IMG/VR virus record: IMGVR_UViG_3300046804_003074
Location: 1 to 21,495 of that record
Length of the DNA: 21,495 nucleotides
Direction: 5' to 3' (one strand)
Source: a virus
This document shows, one piece after another, positions 5,152 to 17,155 of the stretch. Within the stretch, counting starts at the first letter, position 1, and each line of letters starts with the position of its first letter. The notes under the pieces are model-generated. The model worked only from the letters and a program-made list of their open reading frames with translations, made no database searches and had not been told where the DNA came from. The position numbers and the translations under genes are program-made.

Positions 5152-6533
5152 CAGAATTTAAATCCCTCAAATGATTTTTTTGGTCCAGTTTTCTTTTCTT
5201 CATAAGTATACTCCTCATCTTGTCCAGAGTCAAGTATGTCTGCTTGAGCACTCTGTTCGCAATCATAGAGGCGCATCTTTGCACGATCAATACCAACAAC
5301 AAATCGTTTATTGATAGTAGGATCGTTATAACGATTCTTCAATTGTTTCACCATAATCTGTCCCAACTCTTCAAGCTCTTCTGTACTAATAAGGGCAAAC
5401 ATAAGATCAGCAGTAGCAGGGAGACCAAAGGATTCAGAAGTATCAGTAAGTTCAACATCAGAAGAACCATAACCTGAACGAGTGGTCTGAGTAGCGGAAA
5501 CAATTGGGACATTAAACTCCACTGCGAGTCCCCTAAGTTCCTCAGCAATAGCTTTGATATACGAATAAGAGTTGACAGAAAGATTACCCTTATACCGAGA
5601 GGAAGCACAAATATTAAGGTAATCAATGAAAATAATATCAGGCTTAAATGACTTCTTAAGTGCAAGTTCATTAAGAAGTGACTTAAAGTGTCCACTATGA
5701 GCAGATGCAGTGGGATACTCTTTAATTATAAGAGTACCTTGAGTTTTCTTAGCAATATTACTAACTTTTGTCTCAAACATTTGACGAGGAAGTTTTTCAA
5801 TCTCTTGAATATTCACATTCAGAAGATTGGAATCAATCCTTTCCGCAATCCTCTCTTCAGCCATTTCCATGGTAATGTAAAGGACATTTTTACCACGAAG
5901 AAGAACAGAAGAAGCAAAGTGACACATAAAAAGTGATTTACCCACACCAGTGCCTGCAAGAGCAATGTTGAGAGTTTTATTAGGAAGACCACCCTTTGTA
6001 ACCTTGTTGAAGAATTCCAAATCAAAAGGAATCTTTTCTTCGGTCTGGTGATAGAACTCGTATCTTTCTTCATAATCCTGAAGATAATCGTGACCTACAT
6101 TTCGGTCAAAACTTACAGCAAGAGCATCAGAAAGAATCGAAGGAATTGCATCCTTTGTTTTCTTAGAATCCTTACCATCAACGATAGCAATAGATTCCAT
6201 CAATGCAAGATAGATGGCTTTATCACGACACCACTTTTCAGTGGTATCACATAACCAACCAACATCTAGTGTAGAATTATCTAGGTTTCTTACATACTCA
6301 GTCAGTTCTTTGTAAGTATTTTCATTCAGATCACTACGATTCTCAATCTCAACCAAAAGAATCTCATTAGTTGGAAGTTTATTGTACTTGAAAATAAAGT
6401 TACAAATTTCCTCAAAAACTACTTTCTCAGTATAGTCTGTGAAATATTCAGTTCTAATAAATGGTAGAACTTTGCGAGAGTAATCTTCATTAAAAGCAAG
6501 GCTCCTGAGAATTGTAGTTTCAACCCTTTCCAT
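5151..6533 (-). CDS. 41: Replicative DNA helicase, T4 gp41-type (DnaB family)
   Basis: The 460-residue protein is the hexameric helicase that unwinds DNA 5' to 3' ahead of the phage replisome and works with primase gp61 (not in this window). It has a small N-terminal helical domain and a RecA-like C-terminal domain with Walker A ALAGTGVGKS (191-200), Walker B DIIFIDYLN (299-307), and the H3-type SATQTTRSGYG (346-356). The usual C-terminal acidic and Lys-rich tail is present. I chose ATG at 6533, which overlaps the upstream stop as TAATG; an extension to TTG at 6548 would add only five residues and overlap the neighbour. It is followed directly by the AT-rich 298-residue gene. Confidence 0.96.
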   Translation of the reverse strand: MERVETTILRSLAFNEDYSRKVLPFIRTEYFTDYTEKVVFEEICNFIFKYNKLPTNEILLVEIENRSDLNENTYKELTEYVRNLDNSTLDVGWLCDTTEKWCRDKAIYLALMESIAIVDGKDSKKTKDAIPSILSDALAVSFDRNVGHDYLQDYEERYEFYHQTEEKIPFDLEFFNKVTKGGLPNKTLNIALAGTGVGKSLFMCHFASSVLLRGKNVLYITMEMAEERIAERIDSNLLNVNIQEIEKLPRQMFETKVSNIAKKTQGTLIIKEYPTASAHSGHFKSLLNELALKKSFKPDIIFIDYLNICASSRYKGNLSVNSYSYIKAIAEELRGLAVEFNVPIVSATQTTRSGYGSSDVELTDTSESFGLPATADLMFALISTEELEELGQIMVKQLKNRYNDPTINKRFVVGIDRAKMRLYDCEQSAQADILDSGQDEEYTYEEKKTGPKKSFEGFKF

Positions 6534-7072
6534 TAGTAATAGTGACAATAAGTGGACATAATATACTTGACTCCTTTATTGACTCGCAATCCTGCATGAG
6601 GATACTGCCAAGTTGGAGGAAACACCATAACTGATCCTCTTTTAGGAACAATCTTTTTATTGTGATGAGGAAACTCAGTTTCACCACCAGTGAAATCATC
6701 ATTCAAATAATATAAGAAAGCCAAATACCTTCTTGCAGATGCATGATCTTCAACATCCACATGAATATCAAATCTATCGTGACTACGAGAATGATATTTC
6801 TTAATGCGAAACTCTTCCAAAAAGAGTCTTTGCGGATACCATCTAGTGTAATCCGAAAACTCTCTTTTGTAAAGGTCAAGAACATTCTTAGTAATAATAG
6901 AAAGTGTTTGAATATTTTCTGGATGTTTTTGATTGATATTCAGTTGAGTGAAGTTCGGTGTACCTTTGTTATTGATAATTTCTTTATATCCACTTACATC
7001 GAATAAGTGAATTAATGTTTCACATGTTTTTACATCAAGGACATTATCGTAGACCTTAATGAAATTATCCAT
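6533..7072 (-). CDS. 2-oxoglutarate/Fe(II)-dependent oxygenase (prolyl hydroxylase-like)
   Basis: The 179-residue protein has the double-stranded beta-helix oxygenase signature: HVD (His104, Asp106) and distal His159 in WQYPHAG as the iron ligands, with Arg163 or Lys169 nearby in the place of the 2-oxoglutarate-binding basic residue. GGETEFP and PKRGSVMVFPP are typical of the P4H/2OG-FeII_Oxy_3 group. These enzymes hydroxylate proteins or small molecules; the target is unknown. It sits between uvsX and gp41, where T4 itself has no such gene, and is joined to both by overlaps. The start at 7072 overlaps the end of uvsX by 8 bases. A longer frame to 7099 would overlap uvsX by 35 bases and lacks a better ribosome binding site. 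Confidence 0.9.
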   Translation of the reverse strand: MDNFIKVYDNVLDVKTCETLIHLFDVSGYKEIINNKGTPNFTQLNINQKHPENIQTLSIITKNVLDLYKREFSDYTRWYPQRLFLEEFRIKKYHSRSHDRFDIHVDVEDHASARRYLAFLYYLNDDFTGGETEFPHHNKKIVPKRGSVMVFPPTWQYPHAGLRVNKGVKYIMSTYCHYY

Positions 7073-8066
7073 AACAAAACTCTTTCTGTGCAATTTCATC
7101 TAAAGCCTGCATTACTTCTGGAGTGAAATATTCCTCTGGATTTGCGAGGATTTGTTTTGCATAGATCTTCTTTCCATCAATTTCATATCTACCTGCGACA
7201 TTTTTCCAAAGTCCGCCAATCTCACCGAGTTCAAGAAGACCATAGTAACGATCAAGACCACGCTCATCATAATAAAGGCGTACCTCAACATCCTTATTCT
7301 CCTTACTCAAACGAGATTTAGCAGTCTTAGCCTTGATAATGTTTCCAACGACTTCTGTTCCATCTTTCTCTTTTTTCTTACTGAGATAGATGATAGTAGA
7401 AGCGGCATACTTAAGACCACTACCACCTCCCATCTCCTTAGTAGGAACATAAGCACCGATAACATCATAAGTGTGATTCGTAACTAACATTGGAATATTA
7501 GCTTGTCCAAGTTTCAAAGTAATCATCCTGAATGCACCTTTGACCAATTGAGATTTGGTCATGTCCCGAACTTGTTTATCGTTCAGTGCGTCAGTAATCT
7601 CTTTCTCAGTGGAAAGCATTCCAAGAGAGTCTAACACAAACATACAGGGTTTGCGTTCTCCTTCAGGTTTTTTTAAGTATAGGTCTACCGCTTTGAGCGC
7701 TTTACCGCGAAACTCCTCCACTGTAACAACATTAACAACAACAAGACGAGAAGTATCAATTCCACGGGACTCTACAAGTGATTTGGTAATAGCGGCTTCA
7801 GTATCAAAATAGAGACAATAACCATCGGGGTGAGTATCAAGAAAATTCTTAACCACAGCGAGAGAGAAGAAAGTCTTTCCAGTACTAGACTCTCCAGCAA
7901 TAGCAGTAATCTTATTCCCAGATACACCACCAAATATGCTACCTGAAACCAGTGCATTAAAGATGTACGAACCCGTGTCAACATAAGTCTCAGTCTCATC
8001 AATATCAGAAGCGAGTTTGGTATACTCTCCTCCAATTTCCTTTACAATATCCTTTAAAAAGTCCAT
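7065..8066 (-). CDS. uvsX: Recombinase UvsX (RecA/Rad51-like)
   Basis: The 333-residue protein is the phage RecA-type strand-exchange protein, needed for recombination-dependent replication and repair. Walker A is GESSTGKT (58-65). The Walker B region is CMFVLDSLG, and the DNA-binding loop region with EMGGGSGLKYAASTIIYLS is well conserved. Length is slightly below T4 UvsX. The ATG at 8066 overlaps the stop of the upstream 54-residue gene as TAATG, indicating coupled translation. Downstream comes the 2OG oxygenase rather than gp41 directly. Confidence 0.96.
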   Translation of the reverse strand: MDFLKDIVKEIGGEYTKLASDIDETETYVDTGSYIFNALVSGSIFGGVSGNKITAIAGESSTGKTFFSLAVVKNFLDTHPDGYCLYFDTEAAITKSLVESRGIDTSRLVVVNVVTVEEFRGKALKAVDLYLKKPEGERKPCMFVLDSLGMLSTEKEITDALNDKQVRDMTKSQLVKGAFRMITLKLGQANIPMLVTNHTYDVIGAYVPTKEMGGGSGLKYAASTIIYLSKKKEKDGTEVVGNIIKAKTAKSRLSKENKDVEVRLYYDERGLDRYYGLLELGEIGGLWKNVAGRYEIDGKKIYAKQILANPEEYFTPEVMQALDEIAQKEFCYG

Positions 8067-8230: not shown

Positions 8231-8392
8231 TCATTCCTCCAAGTTTTTAGACTCTGTGCATATAACCCAATTATACCTCTTTTTTAACTCATTTGCAAAC
8301 CAATATGCAGTGGAAGCCGTCTCAAACAACTTCCTGTTTTTGACTGGAGACAATTCTCCAGGTTCAGCCCAAACCACTACATATTTACTCAT
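8231..8392 (-). CDS. Small hypothetical protein, 53 residues
   Basis: I take the start as ATG at 8392, which overlaps the gp43 stop as ATGA. A longer frame to 8434 would run into gp43 and lacks a ribosome binding site. The product begins MSKYVVVWAEPGEL and ends CTESKNLEE; it is rich in aromatic residues and looks like a small alpha/beta fold (strand, then a helix with TASTAYWFANELKKRY, then a strand). No catalytic motif is visible. Function unknown. It lies between DNA polymerase and the 54-residue gene. Confidence 0.72.
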   Translation of the reverse strand: MSKYVVVWAEPGELSPVKNRKLFETASTAYWFANELKKRYNWVICTESKNLEE

Positions 8393-10887
8393 CCGAAGAA
8401 AGACTCCAAACTGATAGTTTTTTCCACAGACCATCCAATAGAATCAAGAATAATCTTCATTGGTTCTACAAAAGATTTGTTAAACTGAGTATCGTAATCA
8501 ATATACTTATCCAGCCCAAGTTCTTTTGGAAAGTCCTGAATAAATGCCATCACATTTTCTTGAATTGGATTAGGAACTTTCAAATAAAGAAACTTGATCT
8601 TTTCCCCACTCTGGATCGCTGGGTATTTTTTATCCAGTCCGGCTTTCTTCGTATAGTGATTGTATAGAATTGCACCTCTTACATGAAAAGGAACACCCTT
8701 ATTGTACATATGCGTTCTAGAAACCCACTTATTAATCTCAGAAACACTACGAGGGAATGCAATTTCTTCAGGTTGAAGAGATTTGAATTTCTTACGAGCA
8801 TCCTCAATAAAATCAATCACATCATCCTCACCTTTTGTCATGATAATGTCAATAGAATCTTTAATCATCTTACGACAAGGTGCAGGGGTTGAAGTTTTGA
8901 TAGCCTCAATGCCCATCATCTTAAGTTTGGGCTTCTCATAACGAACACCCTCAGAATCCCAGACACGGAGAATATATCGTTTCTTACCAGTCCAGATGCC
9001 CCTCTCTGCGATGTTCTCGCGTTTCATGTACATCTTCTGGTCGTATGCATTTAAGTAGTCGGCCAGTTCTTGGTAAGAACTTTCAATATACTTTTCAAGT
9101 TCCAACGAACAGACCTTATCAAGGAAAGTAACAACTTCATCAGTAGTTTTCTCTCTCCCTTTGAATACAGCGTCAACAAAAGGACCCATATTAATATAAA
9201 TGGAGTCAGTATCCATAGCAATAACATAATCAACCTCCTGAGTTTTGAGAACCTTATTCATATAAGAGTTCATTTTTTCCTCAATCCACTGAATTGCAAC
9301 TTGTCCAGACAGAGTAATCGCCTCCGCATTTGCAAGTTTGTAATAACGAAAGTACTCATTACCAATCGCACCATAAGCGGAGTTAAGTGCAATCTTTTTA
9401 GCCATCTGAATATTATCACAACGAGAAATCTCCTTCTCCAATTCTTTGGTTGGAGTTTTCTCATAAGCTTTCTTCGCTTCAATCATCTTCTTTTTGAAGA
9501 TAACCCTTTCGTTATACATCTTCTCCATGAGTTCTGGAAGGAACCCACGAATATCTTTCCTATACATTGCACCATTTGCACAAACTGCATAGTCCTTGTA
9601 CATCTCAAAAGTAAGTTCTTTCTTCAGAACCTTATCTACATTGACATTAGGATGACGAGTATCCAGAAGAGTTTCTGGTGAGATGTTGTATTGCATAATC
9701 AAATGCGGATACAGAGAGTTAAGGTCAAAGTTCACAACCCATTCGTACATTCCTGGAGTTGGTTCTTTAACATAAGCACCTGCATACTTCTCATCCTTAG
9801 TATTGCGTTCCTTTTGAGGAATGACAATCTTTTTCTTGAGAAGGTAGTTGTAGATAATTGCATCCCAAGTACGAACCTGATATGCAATATCATTAAAGTT
9901 TACCTTTGCGTCGAATGCACGAGTGAAACAAAGGTCAATCAACTTGAGTTTATCCTCAAGTCGGTCTACCAGTTCCACATCGACGATGTTGTACTCTACA
10001 AACTTTTGCCAGTTATTGGAATAGAAGTCACGGAAAGTATCATACTCAGAGTGATCCAACTTATTCTGACCCAACTCCATGAAAGCAATATGATCCAGTC
10101 GGTAGCTTTCCTGATTAGGAGTTGCAGGAGATTTCTTATAGAGATCTAGATAATCAATAATAGAAACACCTGCAATGTCAACACTAAGTTGTTTGCGACC
10201 AGAGATCGTTACTTCATTGACACGAACGATATTCCATGGAGAAAGTTTCTTTGCAGTCTTCTCTCCCATCAGTCTTGAAATACGACCAACAAGATATGGA
10301 AGGTCATAAAGTTCGCAATTCCAACCAGTAATCACTTCTGGAGTATTACTCTGCCACCAATCCATAAAAGAACCGATAAGAGCATACTCATCCTTGCAAT
10401 AAATGTAATTTACATTCTCCTGCGTGACCTTTGCAGGACGAGAACCAAATGTAGTAATTTGTTTAGTATTATAGTCCTGTACCGTAACCAACAGGAGTTC
10501 TTCGGCGCAATTAAAGACATCAGGAAATCCACTTTCAGCAGCAACCTCAATGTCAATCGTAACCAGTTTGATTTTGTTAATATCAAACTTAATCTCATCC
10601 TCCGGATATTTCTCCGCAATATACTGATAAATGAATCTATCGTTTCCATATACACGGAATCCGTCCACGCCAGAATACTTCTCAAGAAAATCCCTGCAAT
10701 CTCTAATTGTTCCAGGGCGAATTGGTTCTACAGCCTGACCATCCAGAGTTTTATATTCACTCTTCTTTTTTGAGGGAACATAAAATGTAGGATAAAACTC
10801 CTCTTTTACCGTAAAATGTTTTCCGTTTTCATAACCTCGGACAAGGATATCATTACCAAGAAGAAAGACATTCGTATAAAATTTCAT
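8389..10887 (-). CDS. 43: DNA polymerase, T4 gp43-type (family B)
   Basis: The 832-residue protein is the replicative family B polymerase with 3'-5' proofreading. Exonuclease motifs: TIDIE (Asp112, Glu114), GWNCELYDLPYL (188-199) and YNIVD (299-303). Polymerase motifs: DLNSLYPHLI (motif A, 388-397), KKIALNSAYGAIGN (motif B, 497-510) and MDTDSIY (motif C, 558-564). The protein is somewhat shorter than T4 gp43 (about 900 residues), as is usual for cyanophages. It is a single uninterrupted frame, with no intron or split. The start overlaps the stop of the 84-residue SH3/Sm-like gene as ATGA. The C-terminal SLESFFG is a probable clamp-binding peptide, as in T4. Confidence 0.98.
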   Translation of the reverse strand: MKFYTNVFLLGNDILVRGYENGKHFTVKEEFYPTFYVPSKKKSEYKTLDGQAVEPIRPGTIRDCRDFLEKYSGVDGFRVYGNDRFIYQYIAEKYPEDEIKFDINKIKLVTIDIEVAAESGFPDVFNCAEELLLVTVQDYNTKQITTFGSRPAKVTQENVNYIYCKDEYALIGSFMDWWQSNTPEVITGWNCELYDLPYLVGRISRLMGEKTAKKLSPWNIVRVNEVTISGRKQLSVDIAGVSIIDYLDLYKKSPATPNQESYRLDHIAFMELGQNKLDHSEYDTFRDFYSNNWQKFVEYNIVDVELVDRLEDKLKLIDLCFTRAFDAKVNFNDIAYQVRTWDAIIYNYLLKKKIVIPQKERNTKDEKYAGAYVKEPTPGMYEWVVNFDLNSLYPHLIMQYNISPETLLDTRHPNVNVDKVLKKELTFEMYKDYAVCANGAMYRKDIRGFLPELMEKMYNERVIFKKKMIEAKKAYEKTPTKELEKEISRCDNIQMAKKIALNSAYGAIGNEYFRYYKLANAEAITLSGQVAIQWIEEKMNSYMNKVLKTQEVDYVIAMDTDSIYINMGPFVDAVFKGREKTTDEVVTFLDKVCSLELEKYIESSYQELADYLNAYDQKMYMKRENIAERGIWTGKKRYILRVWDSEGVRYEKPKLKMMGIEAIKTSTPAPCRKMIKDSIDIIMTKGEDDVIDFIEDARKKFKSLQPEEIAFPRSVSEINKWVSRTHMYNKGVPFHVRGAILYNHYTKKAGLDKKYPAIQSGEKIKFLYLKVPNPIQENVMAFIQDFPKELGLDKYIDYDTQFNKSFVEPMKIILDSIGWSVEKTISLESFFG

Positions 10888-11138
10888 TGAGTAAGGTTCA
10901 AATAATCATTAAGTAAAGTTTCTTTGGGATCCACCAAAGTCAAGATCTTATCTGAGGATATCATAATTGCATCAGTTGAATCAGTCAACTCATACAACCA
11001 TGGAGTAAGTTTCCTATCATAAATTTGGTAGGGATTTACCAATTTACAATCAGGTTCCCCAAGTTCAGATACTACTGCTGTAATTCTTGAAATTAAAATT
11101 GTTCCACTAACTAGAACAATGACTTGTATTTCATCCAT
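10884..11138 (-). CDS. Small SH3/Sm-like protein, family member 3 (84 residues)
   Basis: The protein of 84 residues has the same plan as two others in this window: a strand with LVSGTILISRI, a NP-containing turn (LVNPYQIYD), a PW motif (TPWLY), then a strand and IxTLVDP, ending with a short helix (LLNDYLNL). Compare LLKSGEQVIADI, NP, SPWI and IVTIVEP in its upstream neighbour, and IATGEEVVAEL, APWA and HIVYIAE in the 98-residue protein. I infer a small beta-barrel of the Sm or SH3 type; no such domain name is proven. It overlaps its neighbours on both sides by a few bases (8 upstream, ATGA to gp43), so it is translated together with the polymerase. Confidence 0.75.
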   Translation of the reverse strand: MDEIQVIVLVSGTILISRITAVVSELGEPDCKLVNPYQIYDRKLTPWLYELTDSTDAIMISSDKILTLVDPKETLLNDYLNLTQ

Positions 11139-11574
11139 TTGTTTCTTCAGTAATTACTTCAAAATTTTCAATCAAAGTTGCACTATCATCTTCTTCGTCA
11201 ACTGTTGGGACATTAGCCCAAATATCTGGAATTGAATTTTCGGATTGAGATTGTTCTGCAGTTACTGCATTCATCTTTTCTTCATAAGACTTCTTAATCC
11301 ATTCATGTGGTTCAACAATGGTAACAATCCATTTTGGATCTAATGCCATTTTTTTGTCTGCGGATAAGACAATCCAAGGAGAAAATGCAACTTTGTGTTC
11401 AATCTCATCAGTCAATTGCACACTACTTTCCATCAATAATTCAGGAGTTAGTAGTCGTGTAATATAAGGATTTGAAAAAACTAATGAAACGACTTTATCA
11501 TCTTCATTAACTAATTCCATAATATCTGCAATTACCTGTTCACCCGATTTTAACAGGGCCAATTTAATAGCCAT
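11131..11574 (-). CDS. Small SH3/Sm-like protein, family member 2 (147 residues)
   Basis: I chose the ATG at 11574, preceded by GGAGT and AGGAGGT, rather than the upstream start at 11649, which would run through the promoter. The N-terminal 95 residues carry the family pattern: MAIKLALLKSGEQVIADI, a NP turn, FSPWI, then WIVTIVEP and a helix. A C-terminal tail rich in Gln, Ser, Asp and Glu follows and ends in ENFEVITEETNG; it is probably disordered. The gene opens the second replication block, directly after a sigma70-like promoter, and precedes gp43. Function unknown; a nucleic-acid-binding or replisome-accessory role is inference from fold and location. Confidence 0.78.
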   Translation of the reverse strand: MAIKLALLKSGEQVIADIMELVNEDDKVVSLVFSNPYITRLLTPELLMESSVQLTDEIEHKVAFSPWIVLSADKKMALDPKWIVTIVEPHEWIKKSYEEKMNAVTAEQSQSENSIPDIWANVPTVDEEDDSATLIENFEVITEETNG

Positions 11575-11578
11575 AATT

Positions 11579-11592
11579 ACTCCATACCTCCT
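11579..11592 (-). promoter_or_regulatory. Double ribosome binding site before the 147-residue gene
   Basis: The minus strand contains AGGAGGT followed by GGAGT, the latter 4 bases before ATG at 11574. It supports the short start and argues against the longer frame. Confidence 0.55.
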
Positions 11593-11595
11593 ATT

Positions 11596-11624
11596 ACGAT
11601 ACCACAAAAAAAGGGGGGTGTCAA
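11596..11624 (-). promoter_or_regulatory. Sigma70-like promoter for the polymerase/uvsX/gp41 block
   Basis: The minus strand has a perfect -35 box TTGACA (11624-11619), a 17-base spacer made largely of C then T runs, and a -10 box TATCGT (11601-11596; four of six matches). The first gene starts 22 bases downstream at 11574. Host-RNA-polymerase promoters of this kind drive early genes in T4-like cyanophages. Confidence 0.6.
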
Positions 11625-11672
11625 CTGGATTTTGCCAGTCGAACCCCAAGCGCCGACGATATTCAAAGATAT

Positions 11673-11861
11673 TTAGGCGCCATCACCATCTGCGGAATTT
11701 CCACTCCCACCCCCGCCTGGATTCTTAGGCACAGCTTTTCCTGCAGAGACTACCTTTGATTTTCCAGTCAACGGATTGTAGATTTTATGCCTAACGGCAG
11801 CAGGGTAGGAAATCTGTTTAATGTTTCCAACTTGTTCTAAGAACTGCTTAAAGGATTTCAT
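11673..11861 (-). CDS. Small protein with capsid-targeting-like N-terminus, 62 residues
   Basis: The product starts MKSFKQFLEQ, which resembles the MKTYQEFIAE peptide of T4 internal proteins and the start of the NMN adenylyltransferase-like gene here. The middle part is basic (AVRHKIYNPLTGKSKVV) and the C-terminus is a Gly/Ser/Asp-rich tail (NPGGGGSGNSADGDGA), probably disordered. The ATG at 11861 lies inside the last codons of hsp20 (14-base overlap), with AAAGG upstream. There is no known catalytic motif. A packaged peptide or a substrate of the head protease is possible, but the residues after LEQ do not make a clean cleavage site, so this is inference only. Confidence 0.65.
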   Translation of the reverse strand: MKSFKQFLEQVGNIKQISYPAAVRHKIYNPLTGKSKVVSAGKAVPKNPGGGGSGNSADGDGA

Positions 11862-12285
11862 ACACCTTTCGTTTCTGATGTTCAGGAATAATCCTATTTA
11901 GTTTGACATGGAGAAGTCCATCCTCAAACTTAACATCAGATACTTTAACATCGTCGGATAGTGTCCAAGTTCTCGTAAAGGCTCTCTTCGCAAGACCATT
12001 GTGAAGATACTCCCCTAGTTCAGAAGTTTCCGCCTTCTTCGCTTCAACGAAGAGTTTATTCCATTCAGTGAAAACTTCAATATCTTCTTTTTTGTATCCT
12101 GCAAGAGCGATCTCTAAACGGAACTCCGTCTCACTCTCCTTAATCAAATTGTATGGTGGATAGTTTGTTGATGTTTCATGAACCGTTCCCAAACGGTGAA
12201 ACCATTCATCCATACCAATACTATATTTTTCAATATCATTTAAAAATTTGTCAATGTTAGCCGTGTTGTACTTAGCGAGTAACAT
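11848..12285 (-). CDS. hsp20: Small heat-shock protein, Hsp20 family
   Basis: The 145-residue protein has the alpha-crystallin domain: PPYNLIKESETEFRLEIALAG (about 43-63), KKEDIEVF, and the C-terminal GLLHVKLNRIIP that ends the domain, followed by a short tail (EHQKRKVYEIL). Hsp20 proteins are ATP-independent holdases; the gene is part of the usual core of T4-like cyanophages, where its role in infection is not settled. Start ATG at 12285 has one of the strongest ribosome binding sites in the window (AAGGAGGT, spacing 5). It stands as a separate unit between two terminator/promoter regions, with a leader of about 90 bases. Confidence 0.95.
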   Translation of the reverse strand: MLLAKYNTANIDKFLNDIEKYSIGMDEWFHRLGTVHETSTNYPPYNLIKESETEFRLEIALAGYKKEDIEVFTEWNKLFVEAKKAETSELGEYLHNGLAKRAFTRTWTLSDDVKVSDVKFEDGLLHVKLNRIIPEHQKRKVYEIL

Positions 12286-12290
12286 GATAG

Positions 12291-12298
12291 ACCTCCTT
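12291..12298 (-). promoter_or_regulatory. Strong ribosome binding site of hsp20
   Basis: The minus strand reads AAGGAGGT, a near full anti-16S match, 5 bases before the ATG at 12285. Most other genes here have weak or no such site and rely on overlapping stops, so high Hsp20 translation is likely. Confidence 0.8.
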
Positions 12299-12377
12299 AA
12301 GCGTCTGTTGGGTTGAATTACGGATCCGAGGACTCCGCTTTAGCGTATGGGCAGTCATGTGACCAAACCCATCACTT

Positions 12378-12383
12378 ATTATA
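12378..12383 (-). promoter_or_regulatory. Possible -10 promoter element (TATAAT) for hsp20
   Basis: The minus strand has a perfect TATAAT within CACTATATAATAAGTG, about 95 bases before the hsp20 start and directly after the regA terminator. No -35 box is seen 17 bases upstream, so it would need an activator or be a middle-type promoter. The surrounding imperfect inverted repeat CACT/AGTG could bind a regulator. Confidence 0.4.
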
Positions 12384-12394
12384 TAGTGAGACAT

Positions 12395-12430
12395 TAAAAA
12401 AGAGGAAGGGTGTAAAACCGATCCTCTTTT
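12395..12430 (-). terminator. Rho-independent terminator after regA
   Basis: On the minus strand AAAAGAGGA pairs with TCCTCTTTT (nine base pairs, partly extended by GGT/ACC in the loop) and the T run continues. It lies 20 bases beyond the regA stop and closes the first replication block. Confidence 0.8.
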
Positions 12431-12449
12431 GTGTGGTATACCGAAAAAA

Positions 12450-12881
12450 TCAGACTTCTACTTTCTTTTTCTTACCAATGTTATACTTACTCTCAAGAAT
12501 CCAATCACCCTTATCCTTATAGGAAAGAACTTTGATTTGATTCAACGGAGCTACATCGGTAATAGAATCTGGTTTTACAATGGTTACCAAACCCCAATCA
12601 GAAATTAGATTAATAATTCTATTGCGTCTCTGGACATCATTTACCGTAAGATTTGCATGTTTGCCGTCAAGTGCAAACAATTCTTTAAAGTGTACGATGT
12701 AATAACGACCCTGTTTATGAAGAATGTGACAGGATTGATAGATTTTCTTTTCCTTGCGCGAGGCAACACCGATACGAGTGAGTGTCTCACGGACTTTTAG
12801 GAAGTCATCTGGTTCATTCAGAACCACTTCCACCATTTGATCTTGCGACCAATGGACTTCTGGTTCAACAAAGGTACTCAT
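12450..12881 (-). CDS. regA: Translational repressor RegA
   Basis: The 143-residue protein matches the T4 RegA family: an N-terminal MVEVVLNEPDDFLKVRETLTRIGVAS segment, the conserved central stretch SCHILHKQGRYYIVHFKELFALDG (about 50-73) and RRNRIINLISDWGLV. RegA binds initiation regions of phage early mRNAs and represses their translation, including clamp and clamp-loader messages in T4. The protein is longer than T4 RegA (122 residues) at its basic C-terminus (GKKKKVEV). The start overlaps the gp62 stop as ATGA, so it is coupled to the clamp loader it may regulate. Confidence 0.95.
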   Translation of the reverse strand: MSTFVEPEVHWSQDQMVEVVLNEPDDFLKVRETLTRIGVASRKEKKIYQSCHILHKQGRYYIVHFKELFALDGKHANLTVNDVQRRNRIINLISDWGLVTIVKPDSITDVAPLNQIKVLSYKDKGDWILESKYNIGKKKKVEV

Positions 12882-13267
12882 CTTTTGCCTCCAACATCAA
12901 GTTTAGATTTAATATAATTAATTTGGTCTTTTGTTAGAATTTTCAGTGCTTGTTGGGCCTTTTCATTACTATAGCCATAGTATGATTTGACTGCATCAAG
13001 GTCTTGAATCTTCTCTTTTTTAAGCCACGGAGAAAATCTTTTCCGTTTCCTGACACTATTTAGTAAAAAATCATATTGCAACTTTGAAGGTAATCCATGA
13101 TTCATGTTCATCTCATTTGCAAACATGATCGTATCAATGTGACCTGACATACATTTGTTGACAACAAACGCAGGATATTTCTTTTCCCACTGAGGATCTC
13201 CATCATCCATCAAATACTCTTTACTAAAGTTGATGGAGTTTAAGTAATCTTTTAGTTCGTAACTCAT
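12878..13267 (-). CDS. 62: Clamp loader small subunit, T4 gp62-type
   Basis: The 129-residue protein corresponds to the short cyanophage form of gp62, which with gp44 loads the gp45 clamp. The recognisable parts are MFANEMNMNHGLPSKLQYDF (about 49-68), RKRKRFSPWLKK (73-84) and YGYSNEKAQQALKIL. T4 gp62 is longer (187 residues). The call rests on its place between the clamp-loader cluster and regA and on resemblance to cyanophage gp62. Both ends overlap neighbours as ATGA. Confidence 0.88.
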   Translation of the reverse strand: MSYELKDYLNSINFSKEYLMDDGDPQWEKKYPAFVVNKCMSGHIDTIMFANEMNMNHGLPSKLQYDFLLNSVRKRKRFSPWLKKEKIQDLDAVKSYYGYSNEKAQQALKILTKDQINYIKSKLDVGGKR

Positions 13268-14385
13268 CGGATAATATCAATAGATTCAGGGTTCTTATTC
13301 CAAGTCTCAAGTTCAGTGCGAAGACGACCTTCAGACTTCAGAGTTTCATAACGATTAGAAGCTTTTTTCTTCCACCAGTTCACAAGATGATCAAAGTGGA
13401 ATTTGTCATAGTTTTGACCTGGACGCAATACTTCTTCCTGTCCTAGAATAACTTCACGAGCATTCTCAAATCCATAATCCGAAATATAAAACCTCTTTTG
13501 TTCAGTCAGGTTTTTTGCATTTACAATCGCAGTCTGGAACTCCACAACCTTTTGAGAAGGTAAGCTTTTTTTGATGATTGAGATCATCTTTTGTTGTGTC
13601 TTGAGTTTCCGACTGGATGCGTCCTCCTTCACCAGAGATTGGTTGTTGTTCCTTTGAATAAACCATTTGTTTAACTCCTGGAAGATTTCATCATGGAGCA
13701 GAGGAGTAAAATCACTTTGAGTTAGACCCTTGTACCTCATATAAGGTTTCAAACCATCATACTGAGATGAGGCTTTAGTAGAACCATAAAGAGAGGTGGT
13801 CTCAAACGAACAAATATCTGATCCATACTTCTTATTTAATGTCTCACGAGCAGTATGAGAACAACAGAGAAGTGCAAGAAGTTTACCTCCAAGATAATTA
13901 AATCCAAAAGGTTGGGTAGGGACAATAATGAATCCCATAATTGCATGACGATTAAACCTAGACAACTCAGGAGTTTGTCCAAGCCAATCATTGCGAGGTT
14001 TAGAATTAATTGTAGGCGAACCAAACCGACAGAAACCTACAATCTTCTGCGTATTAGTTTCTTGTACAATCCACTTCAAAGATTTACCAGGAATACTATC
14101 CTCAATCGCATGAGAAGTAGTAATCTGCAATCTTTCATTAAAATATTCATTCGTAAATCCACCCTTTTCTCCTGCAGGATAAACTTTGAAGTTCATGTCC
14201 TGTGGGTGCATGTCAAATGCATCAAACATATCATCCTCGGGCCCAATCCCAAGAATGGATGAAGGCATTTGTTCCATTCTATCTAGTTTCACATTACGCA
14301 GATATTCATCAATCCTTCCCATGTTAGAGAAGTAATCAATGAATTTATCCGCTGCGTAAACAGCATCATCAAGTTCTAGTTGCAT
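13264..14385 (-). CDS. DUF4338/Mom-like protein of unknown function in the clamp-loader cluster
   Basis: The protein has 373 residues. Residues 114-222 hold an alpha/beta pattern: KIVGFCRFGSPT, RNDWLG, LSRFNR, GFIIVP, NYLGGKLLALLC, YGSDICSFETTSLYGSTK and MRYKGL. This order resembles the DUF4338 domain (found in DruA of the Druantia defence system) and the Mu Mom type acyltransferase-like fold, which share an IGW/R, a FIIxP strand, a helix after Gly-Gly and an ETT-type segment. The match is by eye. The remaining C-terminal part is Lys/Arg-rich and helical. Nothing proves a reaction: it could modify bases, bind DNA or do neither. It sits between the 98-residue gene and gp62 with an ATGA overlap to gp62, so it is made with the replisome proteins. 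Confidence 0.75.
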   Translation of the reverse strand: MQLELDDAVYAADKFIDYFSNMGRIDEYLRNVKLDRMEQMPSSILGIGPEDDMFDAFDMHPQDMNFKVYPAGEKGGFTNEYFNERLQITTSHAIEDSIPGKSLKWIVQETNTQKIVGFCRFGSPTINSKPRNDWLGQTPELSRFNRHAIMGFIIVPTQPFGFNYLGGKLLALLCCSHTARETLNKKYGSDICSFETTSLYGSTKASSQYDGLKPYMRYKGLTQSDFTPLLHDEIFQELNKWFIQRNNNQSLVKEDASSRKLKTQQKMISIIKKSLPSQKVVEFQTAIVNAKNLTEQKRFYISDYGFENAREVILGQEEVLRPGQNYDKFHFDHLVNWWKKKASNRYETLKSEGRLRTELETWNKNPESIDIIR

Positions 14386-14386
14386 A

Positions 14387-14683
14387 TCAGAGAATTAGTT
14401 TCTTTTCACCAGGAGTTACGAGTTTACTCCCATAAACTTCATTATACTTGGTTTTAACTTGTTCCTCAACTTCTGCAATATAAACAATATGATTTTTTGC
14501 AATAATAAGTTCTGGAAGTGACTTATTAATTACAGAAGCCCAAGGAGCAAATCCAACTGTACCATTTGGTGTCGGAAGAACTACAAGTCCATTTTTTACG
14601 GTTACAAAGTTGTCATCTTCAGAAACAAGTTCTGCAACGACTTCTTCACCAGTTGCAATACGAAATAGTTTTACATTAATCAT
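14387..14683 (-). CDS. Small SH3/Sm-like protein, family member 1 (98 residues)
   Basis: The protein begins MINVKLFRIATGEEVVAEL and continues with GLVVLP, GFAPWASVI and HIVYIAEVEEQVKTKYNEV. The spacing of the ATGE, APW and final strand-helix matches the 147- and 84-residue proteins near gp43. Four to five short strands and a final helix are expected, which suggests a small beta-barrel (Sm or SH3 type). It lies between the JmjC-like gene and the DUF4338-like gene. The function is unknown. There is no obvious ribosome binding site before the ATG at 14683. Confidence 0.78.
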   Translation of the reverse strand: MINVKLFRIATGEEVVAELVSEDDNFVTVKNGLVVLPTPNGTVGFAPWASVINKSLPELIIAKNHIVYIAEVEEQVKTKYNEVYGSKLVTPGEKKLIL

Positions 14684-14699
14684 TTTGAATAATTTTCAA

Positions 14700-15296
14700 T
14701 TAAAATTTTTTGTTGTCTGTTATTAACATAAATTTTTCCATGCATTTTTTATACATTGGAATACTAATACTAATCCTATCAGAAAGTGGCTCAAAAAGGT
14801 GATATCTCAATGATGGAATAAAAATTCTATCTCCAGGTTTAAGAATAAGTTTATCTTTAATTGTTAAATTTCCACCATCAAATAATCCAGATTTAATAGC
14901 AAATTCATTAAAAATCGTTACTTTTGAAGATCCAATACATTGAATAATTAAATTATCTGGATTATCTGCATGAATTGAAAAAGATCTAGATCCCATCATA
15001 CCACAATAAACATGAGCTTGACAATCTACATTATCTTTTTTCTCAATAGATTCAATTAATTTTTTTACTTTATTATTAATTACGGAAGAATGGATTATAA
15101 AAGTAGCTTTTTGATCCCACAATTGAAATAATTTTTTGAAATCAAATCTATATTCCCATCGTGTAGTTTTTATGTAAATATTAGGATCAATTTTATATCC
15201 ACTTTCACAATCTATTACATCTAATAATTCAGGACTAACATAAGTACTTTTTAAAAATTTCCAAATCGAAGAAAAATTAATCAATTTATCACTCAT
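14700..15296 (-). CDS. Cupin_8/JmjC-like putative Fe(II) oxygenase
   Basis: The 198-residue protein ends in a cupin-type core: SIHADNPDNLIIQCIGSSK (His109 and Asp111 as HxD, Lys125 after Gly-Ser-Ser) and LKPGDRIFIPSLRYHLFEP (distal His166), with SDRISISIP closing. HxD...H plus the GD.IFIP strand are the hallmark of cupin_8/JmjC 2-oxoglutarate oxygenases such as asparaginyl or histone hydroxylases. The substrate is unknown. The gene is AT-rich, overlaps the gp44 stop as ATGA, and separates gp44 from its usual partner gp62. It shares the core with the gene upstream of gp44. Confidence 0.8.
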   Translation of the reverse strand: MSDKLINFSSIWKFLKSTYVSPELLDVIDCESGYKIDPNIYIKTTRWEYRFDFKKLFQLWDQKATFIIHSSVINNKVKKLIESIEKKDNVDCQAHVYCGMMGSRSFSIHADNPDNLIIQCIGSSKVTIFNEFAIKSGLFDGGNLTIKDKLILKPGDRIFIPSLRYHLFEPLSDRISISIPMYKKCMEKFMLITDNKKF

Positions 15297-16243
15297 TTGA
15301 ACTCACATTCAACCATAATTTCAGTTAATGCTGCAAGAATATTTACTTCCTGGTCAGCCACGAACGCACATTGGTATTGATACTTAGCAATAATAAGAAC
15401 GGCAGCAGGAATAGTTTGGGGTGAAAGCCAATCATAAGTGGCGTCATAAACCCTGCGAAGTAGACTACTAGCATCGTTGTCCAAGTTCCCGACCACCCAC
15501 TTTCGGACTTCAGTAAAGTTTTTAGTTTTGAGATGTTTAACAAGTTCATTTACATTTACATCAGAAAATTCAGCAAGAATTGCAGAGTCAATCTTTCCAC
15601 CCGCAGAGTATCTTTGACACTCGTTTAGGACTCGTCGCCAATCGGGGAAGTGCTTGTTGATGAGTTCTGCAAGGACTTTAGGATCGTATTGTACACATTC
15701 CGCATCCAGGATGTTCTGTATACGCTTGAAGAAGGATCCTGCCAACTGGGCTTTTTCTTTTCCTTTGATACTGAACTCAACGACTGCACAACGGGAGTGG
15801 AGGGGTTCAATGATTTTGTTTTTGTAGTTGCATGTGAAAATGAACCTACAGTTGTTATAAAACGCCTCAATATTAGCCCGTAGAAGGAGTTGTACATCGT
15901 GGGTTGTGTTGTCAGCCTCATCAATGATGATGACTTTGTGTTTTGCATCACCCGCAGAAAGTGATACGGTCGAAGCAAAGTTTTTTGCCTGGTTCCGTAC
16001 CGTGTCCAGAAATCGTCCTTCGTCAGATCCATTGATGACATAGTAATCTACTCCTAGTTCTTCACACAGAGCTTTTGCAACTGTGGTTTTTCCACAACCT
16101 GCGGGTCCAGCAAGCATCAGGTTTGGAATTTCTTTGTTATTTAGAAACTCCAAAAAGGTTTTCTTGTTTGCATCTGGAAGAATGCAATCTTCAATTTTGC
16201 GTGGGCGATATTTCTCAACCCACAAAAATTCATCACGAGACAT
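15293..16243 (-). CDS. 44: Clamp loader large subunit, T4 gp44-type AAA+ ATPase
   Basis: The 316-residue protein is the ATPase of the clamp loader. It starts with LWVEKYRPRKIEDC, typical of RFC/gp44. Walker A is AGPAGCGKTT (45-54), Walker B is VIIIDEAD (104-111), sensor 1 lies in FIFTCNYKNKI (135-145) and the arginine finger SRC at 150-152. It loads gp45 onto primer ends together with gp62. The length agrees with T4 gp44 (319). There is no clear ribosome binding site before ATG at 16243; ten bases separate it from the upstream cupin gene. Confidence 0.97.
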   Translation of the reverse strand: MSRDEFLWVEKYRPRKIEDCILPDANKKTFLEFLNNKEIPNLMLAGPAGCGKTTVAKALCEELGVDYYVINGSDEGRFLDTVRNQAKNFASTVSLSAGDAKHKVIIIDEADNTTHDVQLLLRANIEAFYNNCRFIFTCNYKNKIIEPLHSRCAVVEFSIKGKEKAQLAGSFFKRIQNILDAECVQYDPKVLAELINKHFPDWRRVLNECQRYSAGGKIDSAILAEFSDVNVNELVKHLKTKNFTEVRKWVVGNLDNDASSLLRRVYDATYDWLSPQTIPAAVLIIAKYQYQCAFVADQEVNILAALTEIMVECEFK

Positions 16244-16252
16244 AATTTAAAA

Positions 16253-17155
16253 TCAAAAAAGGTTGATGGTAAGGGTCAATCTATCACTTAAACATTCTAC
16301 CACAGAATGATCTGTTTGTGCTGGAATTAAAATAGTATCTCCTTCCTCATATTCAAAAATATCATCTGAAATTTTCCATTTTGTTTTTCCATAAATTACT
16401 TTAACCACAACACTATAATGATGGCTGTGTGGTAACCAACTACGATAAGAACTTACATGCTTAGAAAAGTAAAAGTTGCCTATTAAGTTTGTTCCCACAA
16501 CTTCAAATAATTTTTTTCTAAGATTTCTTAATTCTGGAGTTAGATCCAAAACATCAGAAATCATTGTAACAAATCCTAGATCATAATATTTTTTCCATTC
16601 ATCAAAAATGAATGTTCCATCTCTATCATAAAACTTAGAATACTCAACATTATTTCCATTGGTAATTACTTGGATTGGAGTGTCTTTTCCATAAATTGGA
16701 GCTAAAGATGGAATTTGCTGATTCTCAACATCATAAAAATATTTAAAAGGCCATCTATTTTCAATTTGAAGTAAATTTAGAATATCTTTTTCTTCAAGAT
16801 TAATTTCAAATTCATCTATAATTTGATATAAATTTAAAATTTTAGAAGATACTTCTTCAATTTCTTTTTTATTTTGATAAGTATTTAATATCTCCGATAT
16901 ATCATTTTCTAAAAAATTTTCCAATTCTTTTTCTAAAAAGATATCTTGTTCTTCAGGTGAAGAAGTATTCATATCCATTACTTTTTTTATTGACATTTTA
17001 TTGTCAATTTTTGCAAGATTTTTATCTTCCATTGAATTTTCTATAAAATATTTTAATTGATCTTCAAAAAAGTTTTTTTGTTGTTCTTCTGTTTCTAAAG
17101 AAGGTACTCTATAATCATTTAATGTTATTTTTTTTACTAAAATATTTTTGTCCAT
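16253..17155 (-). CDS. Long helical protein with C-terminal cupin/JmjC-like domain
   Basis: The 300-residue protein has two parts. Residues 1-130 are very rich in Lys, Glu, Asn and Ile and mostly helical, perhaps coiled. The C-terminal part (230-300) has the cupin pattern: LPHSHHYSVVVKVIYGKTK (His243/245/246), EYEEGDTILIPAQTDH (distal His283) and LSDRLTLTINLF. The last 60 residues align by eye with the 198-residue protein downstream of gp44 (G..K..I, GD.I.IP, H, SDR). A metal-dependent oxygenase or sugar-binding cupin is possible; the first HxH differs from the usual HxD. The gene is strikingly AT-rich compared with gp44. It starts one base after the upstream stop. Confidence 0.75.
   Translation of the reverse strand: MDKNILVKKITLNDYRVPSLETEEQQKNFFEDQLKYFIENSMEDKNLAKIDNKMSIKKVMDMNTSSPEEQDIFLEKELENFLENDISEILNTYQNKKEIEEVSSKILNLYQIIDEFEINLEEKDILNLLQIENRWPFKYFYDVENQQIPSLAPIYGKDTPIQVITNGNNVEYSKFYDRDGTFIFDEWKKYYDLGFVTMISDVLDLTPELRNLRKKLFEVVGTNLIGNFYFSKHVSSYRSWLPHSHHYSVVVKVIYGKTKWKISDDIFEYEEGDTILIPAQTDHSVVECLSDRLTLTINLF

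Follow-up and report, generated by a model that had tools for sequence, protein, structure and literature searches.

Sm-like paralogues at fixed positions in the replication block of cyanophage-type T4-like phages: possible acidic adaptors

The closest solved relative of the proteins described here is PDB entry 3BY7 (JCVI_PEP_1096686650277), an Sm/LSm-like protein from an uncultured marine organism. The entry holds five chains and is titled as structurally similar to Sm/LSm proteins; the protein is reportedly a pentamer of putative cyanophage origin. Its sequence is also matched by TIP60 (7EQ9), a designed cage. Annotated cyanophages carry the same genes in the same places, but these are dispersed among families: PHROGs keeps them apart as phrog_483, phrog_431, phrog_527 and phrog_471 (SmA, SmB, SmC and SmD, respectively, in this work), and GenBank records number them as T4 gene clusters 139, 176 and 177. 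Both schemes list the classes as unrelated unknowns, whereas we join them here in a single paralogous family; the T4 gene clustering used reciprocal BLAST, which would separate paralogues. The recent genome of S-SCSM2R labels its copies as TIP60 protein, DUF6561 protein and Sm-like protein, so partial recognition of the family exists. Of the 25 core genes of cyanophages, 16 are hypothetical (Sullivan et al., 2010; PMC3037559). Our literature search, mostly of sources other than subscription journals, retrieved no work joining the four paralogues as a position-specific set, and none on the function of these proteins. The fold and the family are already known.

Marine cyanophages are abundant viruses of the ocean, and the family recurs among them, with almost every copy annotated as unknown or misnamed. 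Uniting four unknown families with a solved relative assigns a fold to each of them and points to its likely oligomeric state and to specific candidate partners.

Three paralogues beside the polymerase and clamp-loader genes

The window, a 21.5-kb virus fragment, carries on its minus strand the replication block of a T4-like cyanophage, with genes for gp45, gp44, gp62, RegA, Hsp20, gp43, UvsX and gp41. The ORFs of 84, 147 and 98 residues singled out in the initial annotation are all present on this strand, two of them beside the DNA polymerase gene and the other in the clamp-loader cluster, as it had described. SmA (84 aa; 10,884–11,138, minus strand; DUF6561/phrog_483) is directly upstream of gp43 (8,389–10,887, minus strand), with which it is co-translated: its TGA stop codon lies within an ATGA overlap whose ATG is the gp43 start. 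SmB (147 aa; 11,131–11,574, minus strand; phrog_431) overlaps SmA by 8 nt and comprises an Sm-like core of around 103 residues plus an acidic tail; its length is counted from the ATG at 11,574, the longest ORF beginning at a TTG at position 11,649. Upstream of SmB is the gene for the small heat-shock protein Hsp20 (11,848–12,285, minus strand; Pfam HSP20, 2e-14). SmC (98 aa; 14,387–14,683, minus strand; phrog_527) has upstream the gene for the clamp-loader subunit gp44 (15,293–16,243, minus strand), as annotated in relatives. Because SmB and SmA overlap by 8 nt and SmA and gp43 share the ATGA, the previous claim that all three proteins are translated with replisome genes agrees with the arrangement of the pair by the polymerase; for SmC, it reduces to a location on the same strand within the clamp-loader cluster.

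SmA matched Pfam PF20198 (DUF6561) at 4e-26 (91 bits) and phrog_483 at 2e-19; SmB matched phrog_431 at 9e-26, with cross-matches to phrog 483, 527 and 471, and SmC matched phrog_527 at 2.5e-30. SmA and SmB (28.4 bits) pass the curated PF20198 cut-off of 27 bits, whereas SmC is homologous yet unmatched by this model. The proposed common layout was largely borne out, with an SG/TG turn, a PW motif, a final I-V/L-x-(I/L) strand and a C-terminal helix in the three proteins, except that the NP turn of SmA and SmB is missing from SmC, which has KNG instead.

SmA, SmB and SmC are homologous paralogues. Single-sequence BLAST joined B with C (3e-6, 29% identity) and A with B (2e-4), with no match between SmA and SmC. 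We then compared profiles built from IMG/VR relatives for four classes; the family is larger than the three members first proposed and includes SmD, which in related phages lies between uvsW and gp55, outside the window. These comparisons scored 95.5% for A-B, 91% for B-C, 70% for A-D and just 6.5% for A-C; with larger alignments, the values were 97% for A-B, 94% for B-C, 89% for A-D and 88% for B-D, while A-C and C-D stayed below 10%. Nevertheless, each of the six pairs, including A-C, beat 60 of 60 column-shuffled controls, and a scan of 10,664 ORFs revealed that the four profiles detect one another and almost nothing else. The resemblance is not due to chance. The A-C link is weak alone, and it is sustained by B, by 3BY7 and by the shuffled controls. 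That unrelated small SH3-like barrels converged would agree with the failure to join SmA and SmC directly at a useful probability, but A-B, B-C, A-D and B-D are clearly joined, one solved relative is common to all the profiles and shuffling never reached the observed scores; we consider convergence extremely improbable. The paralogy suspected from the first reading of the DNA is thus upheld by the profile links, the shared relative 3BY7 and the shuffle controls, and we are nearly certain that these genes constitute one phage-specific Sm/LSm-fold family, duplicated and kept in position. The barrel-like C-terminal part of the cytidylyltransferase (1,164–2,423) was considered as another relative and rejected (E 0.7).

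In a profile search of all PDB sequences, 3BY7 was the top match for SmA (2e-6), SmB (2e-8) and SmC (3e-9), whereas the SmD profile retrieved TIP60 first and then 3BY7 (4e-3); the single sequence of SmC was enough to find 3BY7 at 4e-6. The AlphaFold model of SmC matched 3BY7 best (Z 12.7, rmsd 1.9 over 80 residues), followed by TIP60 and then by Sm/LSm chains. That of SmA (pLDDT 84) gave its best matches to TIP60 and 3BY7, with Z of around 7 and only over residues 2–66, and, on a second look, Sm/LSm-fold proteins came next. This model leaves the last strand open, which makes the evidence on fold weaker for SmA than for SmC; an open strand can arise if one subunit of an oligomer is modelled by itself. 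Both modelled monomers are thus Sm-like, with no sign of unrelated folds, and the models of SmA and SmC, together with the sequence profiles of A, B and C, indicate that the three proteins have an Sm-like fold, already known from the solved relative 3BY7. The window proteins match 3BY7 in profile, fold and length, and share with it the PW motif and the position of the loop Lys, although they are just 20–25% identical to it in structure alignments; additionally, a GEPDC loop distinguishes SmA, a long acidic tail distinguishes SmB, and a ring in the window proteins would be by analogy. With canonical Sm/LSm proteins and Hfq they share the Sm-type barrel, the conserved Gly of the first turn and possibly a ring, but they differ in the C-terminal helix, the PW motif in strand 4, the lack of matches to LSM or Hfq models, the uniform acidity and an occurrence that, in our data, is limited to phages.

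Gene order and distribution in phages

Gene order is near-fixed among relatives, as hsp20-SmB-SmA-gp43, gp44-SmC and uvsW-SmD-gp55. SmB preceded SmA in 134 of 136 IMG/VR loci; gp43 followed SmA in all 133 loci with a downstream marker, and Hsp20 preceded SmB in all 122 with an upstream marker. Likewise, of 91 SmC loci, 89 had gp44 as their upstream marker, SmD was flanked by UvsW and gp55 in all 78 of its loci, and ATGA ended 130 of 141 SmA genes. These loci are redundant: clustering at 90% identity leaves 37 SmA groups outside the window, and many of the 351 phage records with SmC-like genes are near-duplicates. In the tree, 3BY7 was placed beside C and each positional class formed a single group (support was strong in C, fair in A and modest in B and D); the duplications are therefore old.

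SmB and SmD occur in the ten complete cyanophage genomes examined, as does SmA, although in S-BM3 and S-CREM1 it was recognized only from low scores where the gene was expected; P-HM2 contains two SmB copies. SmC was clear in 3 of the 10, indicating that its position is not essential. Where phages lack SmC, the genes that occupy the gp44 position (GC158 of S-SSM7, P-HM2 and P-SSM2, and gp116 of HTVC008M) were tried as candidates and discarded, showing no useful Sm-like E-values. Pelagiphage HTVC008M contains one family member, at the uvsW-gp55 position, and we found none in the genome of T4.

SmD is called "methylamine utilization" in PHROG 471 and in several phage records (its copy in S-SCSM2R is at L081:129–542); this label is unsupported, SmD being an Sm-like paralogue.

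A cellular origin was also considered, from two matches in genome collections, and rejected: both have phage neighbours, as phage DNA in metagenome-assembled genomes (MAGs). The contig from a Formosa MAG (L306) contains a cyanophage-type gp43, Hsp20 and SmB; that from a Thermoplasmata MAG (CP070751.1, L307) contains these plus gp62, RegA and SmA, inside a 5.2-Mb "chromosome" with runs of N. The phage genes in both contigs are probably assembly or binning contamination.

Charge, class-specific regions and possible functions

Two features mark the whole family: a Gly in the turn that joins strand 1 to strand 2, and the PW motif, located in strand 4. Conservation specific to each class concentrates in the tails and in two loops, one following strand 2 and the other preceding strand 5, which are the usual RNA contact sites of Sm proteins. 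SmA is typified by GEPDC and SSDK loops, SmB by PDW, SmC by K/R-x-H and a conserved tail, GSKLVTPxEKKLI, that ends in KKLIL, and SmD by MDK/R and a C-terminal helix. The acidic tail of SmB ends, in close relatives, in a conserved stretch like LIENFEVITEE. The tail of SmC was compared to the C-terminus of gp43 as a possible clamp-binding peptide, and rejected for lack of resemblance. Net charge was negative in all 249 sequences of the four classes, with medians of -3 to -8 per chain.

The proteins share their fold with RNA-binding Sm/LSm proteins, to which 3BY7 is titled as similar, and the loop preceding the last strand, an RNA contact site in Sm proteins, retains a Lys/Arg in SmA and SmD and a K/R-x-H in SmC. 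These features would suit Hfq- or Sm-like rings with a nucleic acid as their target, either phage mRNA, RegA perhaps taking part, or the single-stranded DNA of the fork. Nevertheless, the four classes are all acidic, so that a mixed ring would be acidic too; SmC does not keep the Asn of the canonical Sm1 motif; the Pfam LSM and Hfq models gave no match up to E 10, a range in which HMMER filters drop most very weak matches; and we found no Rfam RNA elements in the window. The uniform negative charge and the lack of LSM or Hfq matches weaken the RNA-binding or RNA-chaperone interpretation, and we see binding of nucleic acids as doubtful.

Protein-protein roles are known for Sm-fold proteins, as with Gemin6/7 and with Naa38, a subunit of NatC. 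We tentatively favour, with the balance tipped slightly against it, an explanation in which one phage-specific Sm/LSm family, of the 3BY7/DUF6561 kind, was duplicated early in cyanophage-type T4-like phages, its copies then being kept at set positions (SmB and SmA before gp43, SmC after gp44 and, in relatives, SmD between uvsW and gp55), where they would work as acidic ring adaptors. By analogy with 3BY7, the common Sm core of each protein would make a small ring, which for SmA is an assumption, since its model leaves the last strand open; the overlapping SmB and SmA genes may feed one mixed ring. The loops and tails, namely GEPDC and SSDK in SmA, the acidic tail of SmB, the KKLIL-ended tail of SmC and the C-terminal helix of SmD, would be the binding parts, and the partners would be replication, recombination or late-transcription proteins from the same gene block. 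Rings that each have their own partners would be expected to combine a common core with distinct loops and tails, as is seen here, and the uniform acidity, the conserved class-specific loops and tails, and the translational coupling of SmB, SmA and gp43 also favour docking of proteins. Conversely, acidic subunits also occur in RNA-binding LSm rings, the SmC position is not essential, and synteny extends over the entire replication block of these phages, so that adjacency of genes is a weak argument; docking on acidic rings is, as a mechanism, a somewhat more tentative proposal than the explanation as a whole.

The overlap and co-translation of SmB, SmA and gp43, the adjacency of each class to one large machine gene and the presence of Hsp20 just upstream could also be expected from assembly or dosage factors, that is, rings that bind nascent or free gp43, gp44/62 or UvsW from the same message and control the assembly of complexes, outside of the working replisome. 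Short overlaps are, however, common in phage genomes, and we consider such a role unlikely. Returning to adaptors, their generalization, that cyanophage-type T4-like phages deploy up to four Sm-like ring proteins as acidic adaptors, one kind being fixed at each of several replication, recombination and late-transcription modules, with SmA and SmB perhaps in a mixed ring, and that this set is absent from T4, is open to considerable doubt; if the adaptor idea is true, the cyanophage replisome has a layer missing from the T4 model.

Several neighbouring genes deserve mention. The gene between SmC and gp62 (13,264–14,385, minus strand) contains a region like DruA (DUF4338; 1.4e-9 in Pfam and 2e-5 to DruA in PADLOC), and its copy in S-SCSM2R is labelled Mom. 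In relatives, the slot after SmC is taken by this gene in 58 loci and by a Dam methylase in 28, an alternation that hints at interchangeable DNA-modification genes. The replication block also includes three cupin, JmjC or 2OG-Fe(II)-oxygenase-like proteins (14,700–15,296, 16,253–17,155 and 6,533–7,099, all on the minus strand). Lastly, a Gly-rich protein of 62 residues (11,673–11,861, minus strand) starts with MKSFKQFLEQ, like the MKNFSNFLIEA of the cytidylyltransferase, also on the minus strand; we take both starts to resemble the capsid-targeting starts of T4. The cytidylyltransferase of a cyanophage has been detected in virions (PMC3037559).
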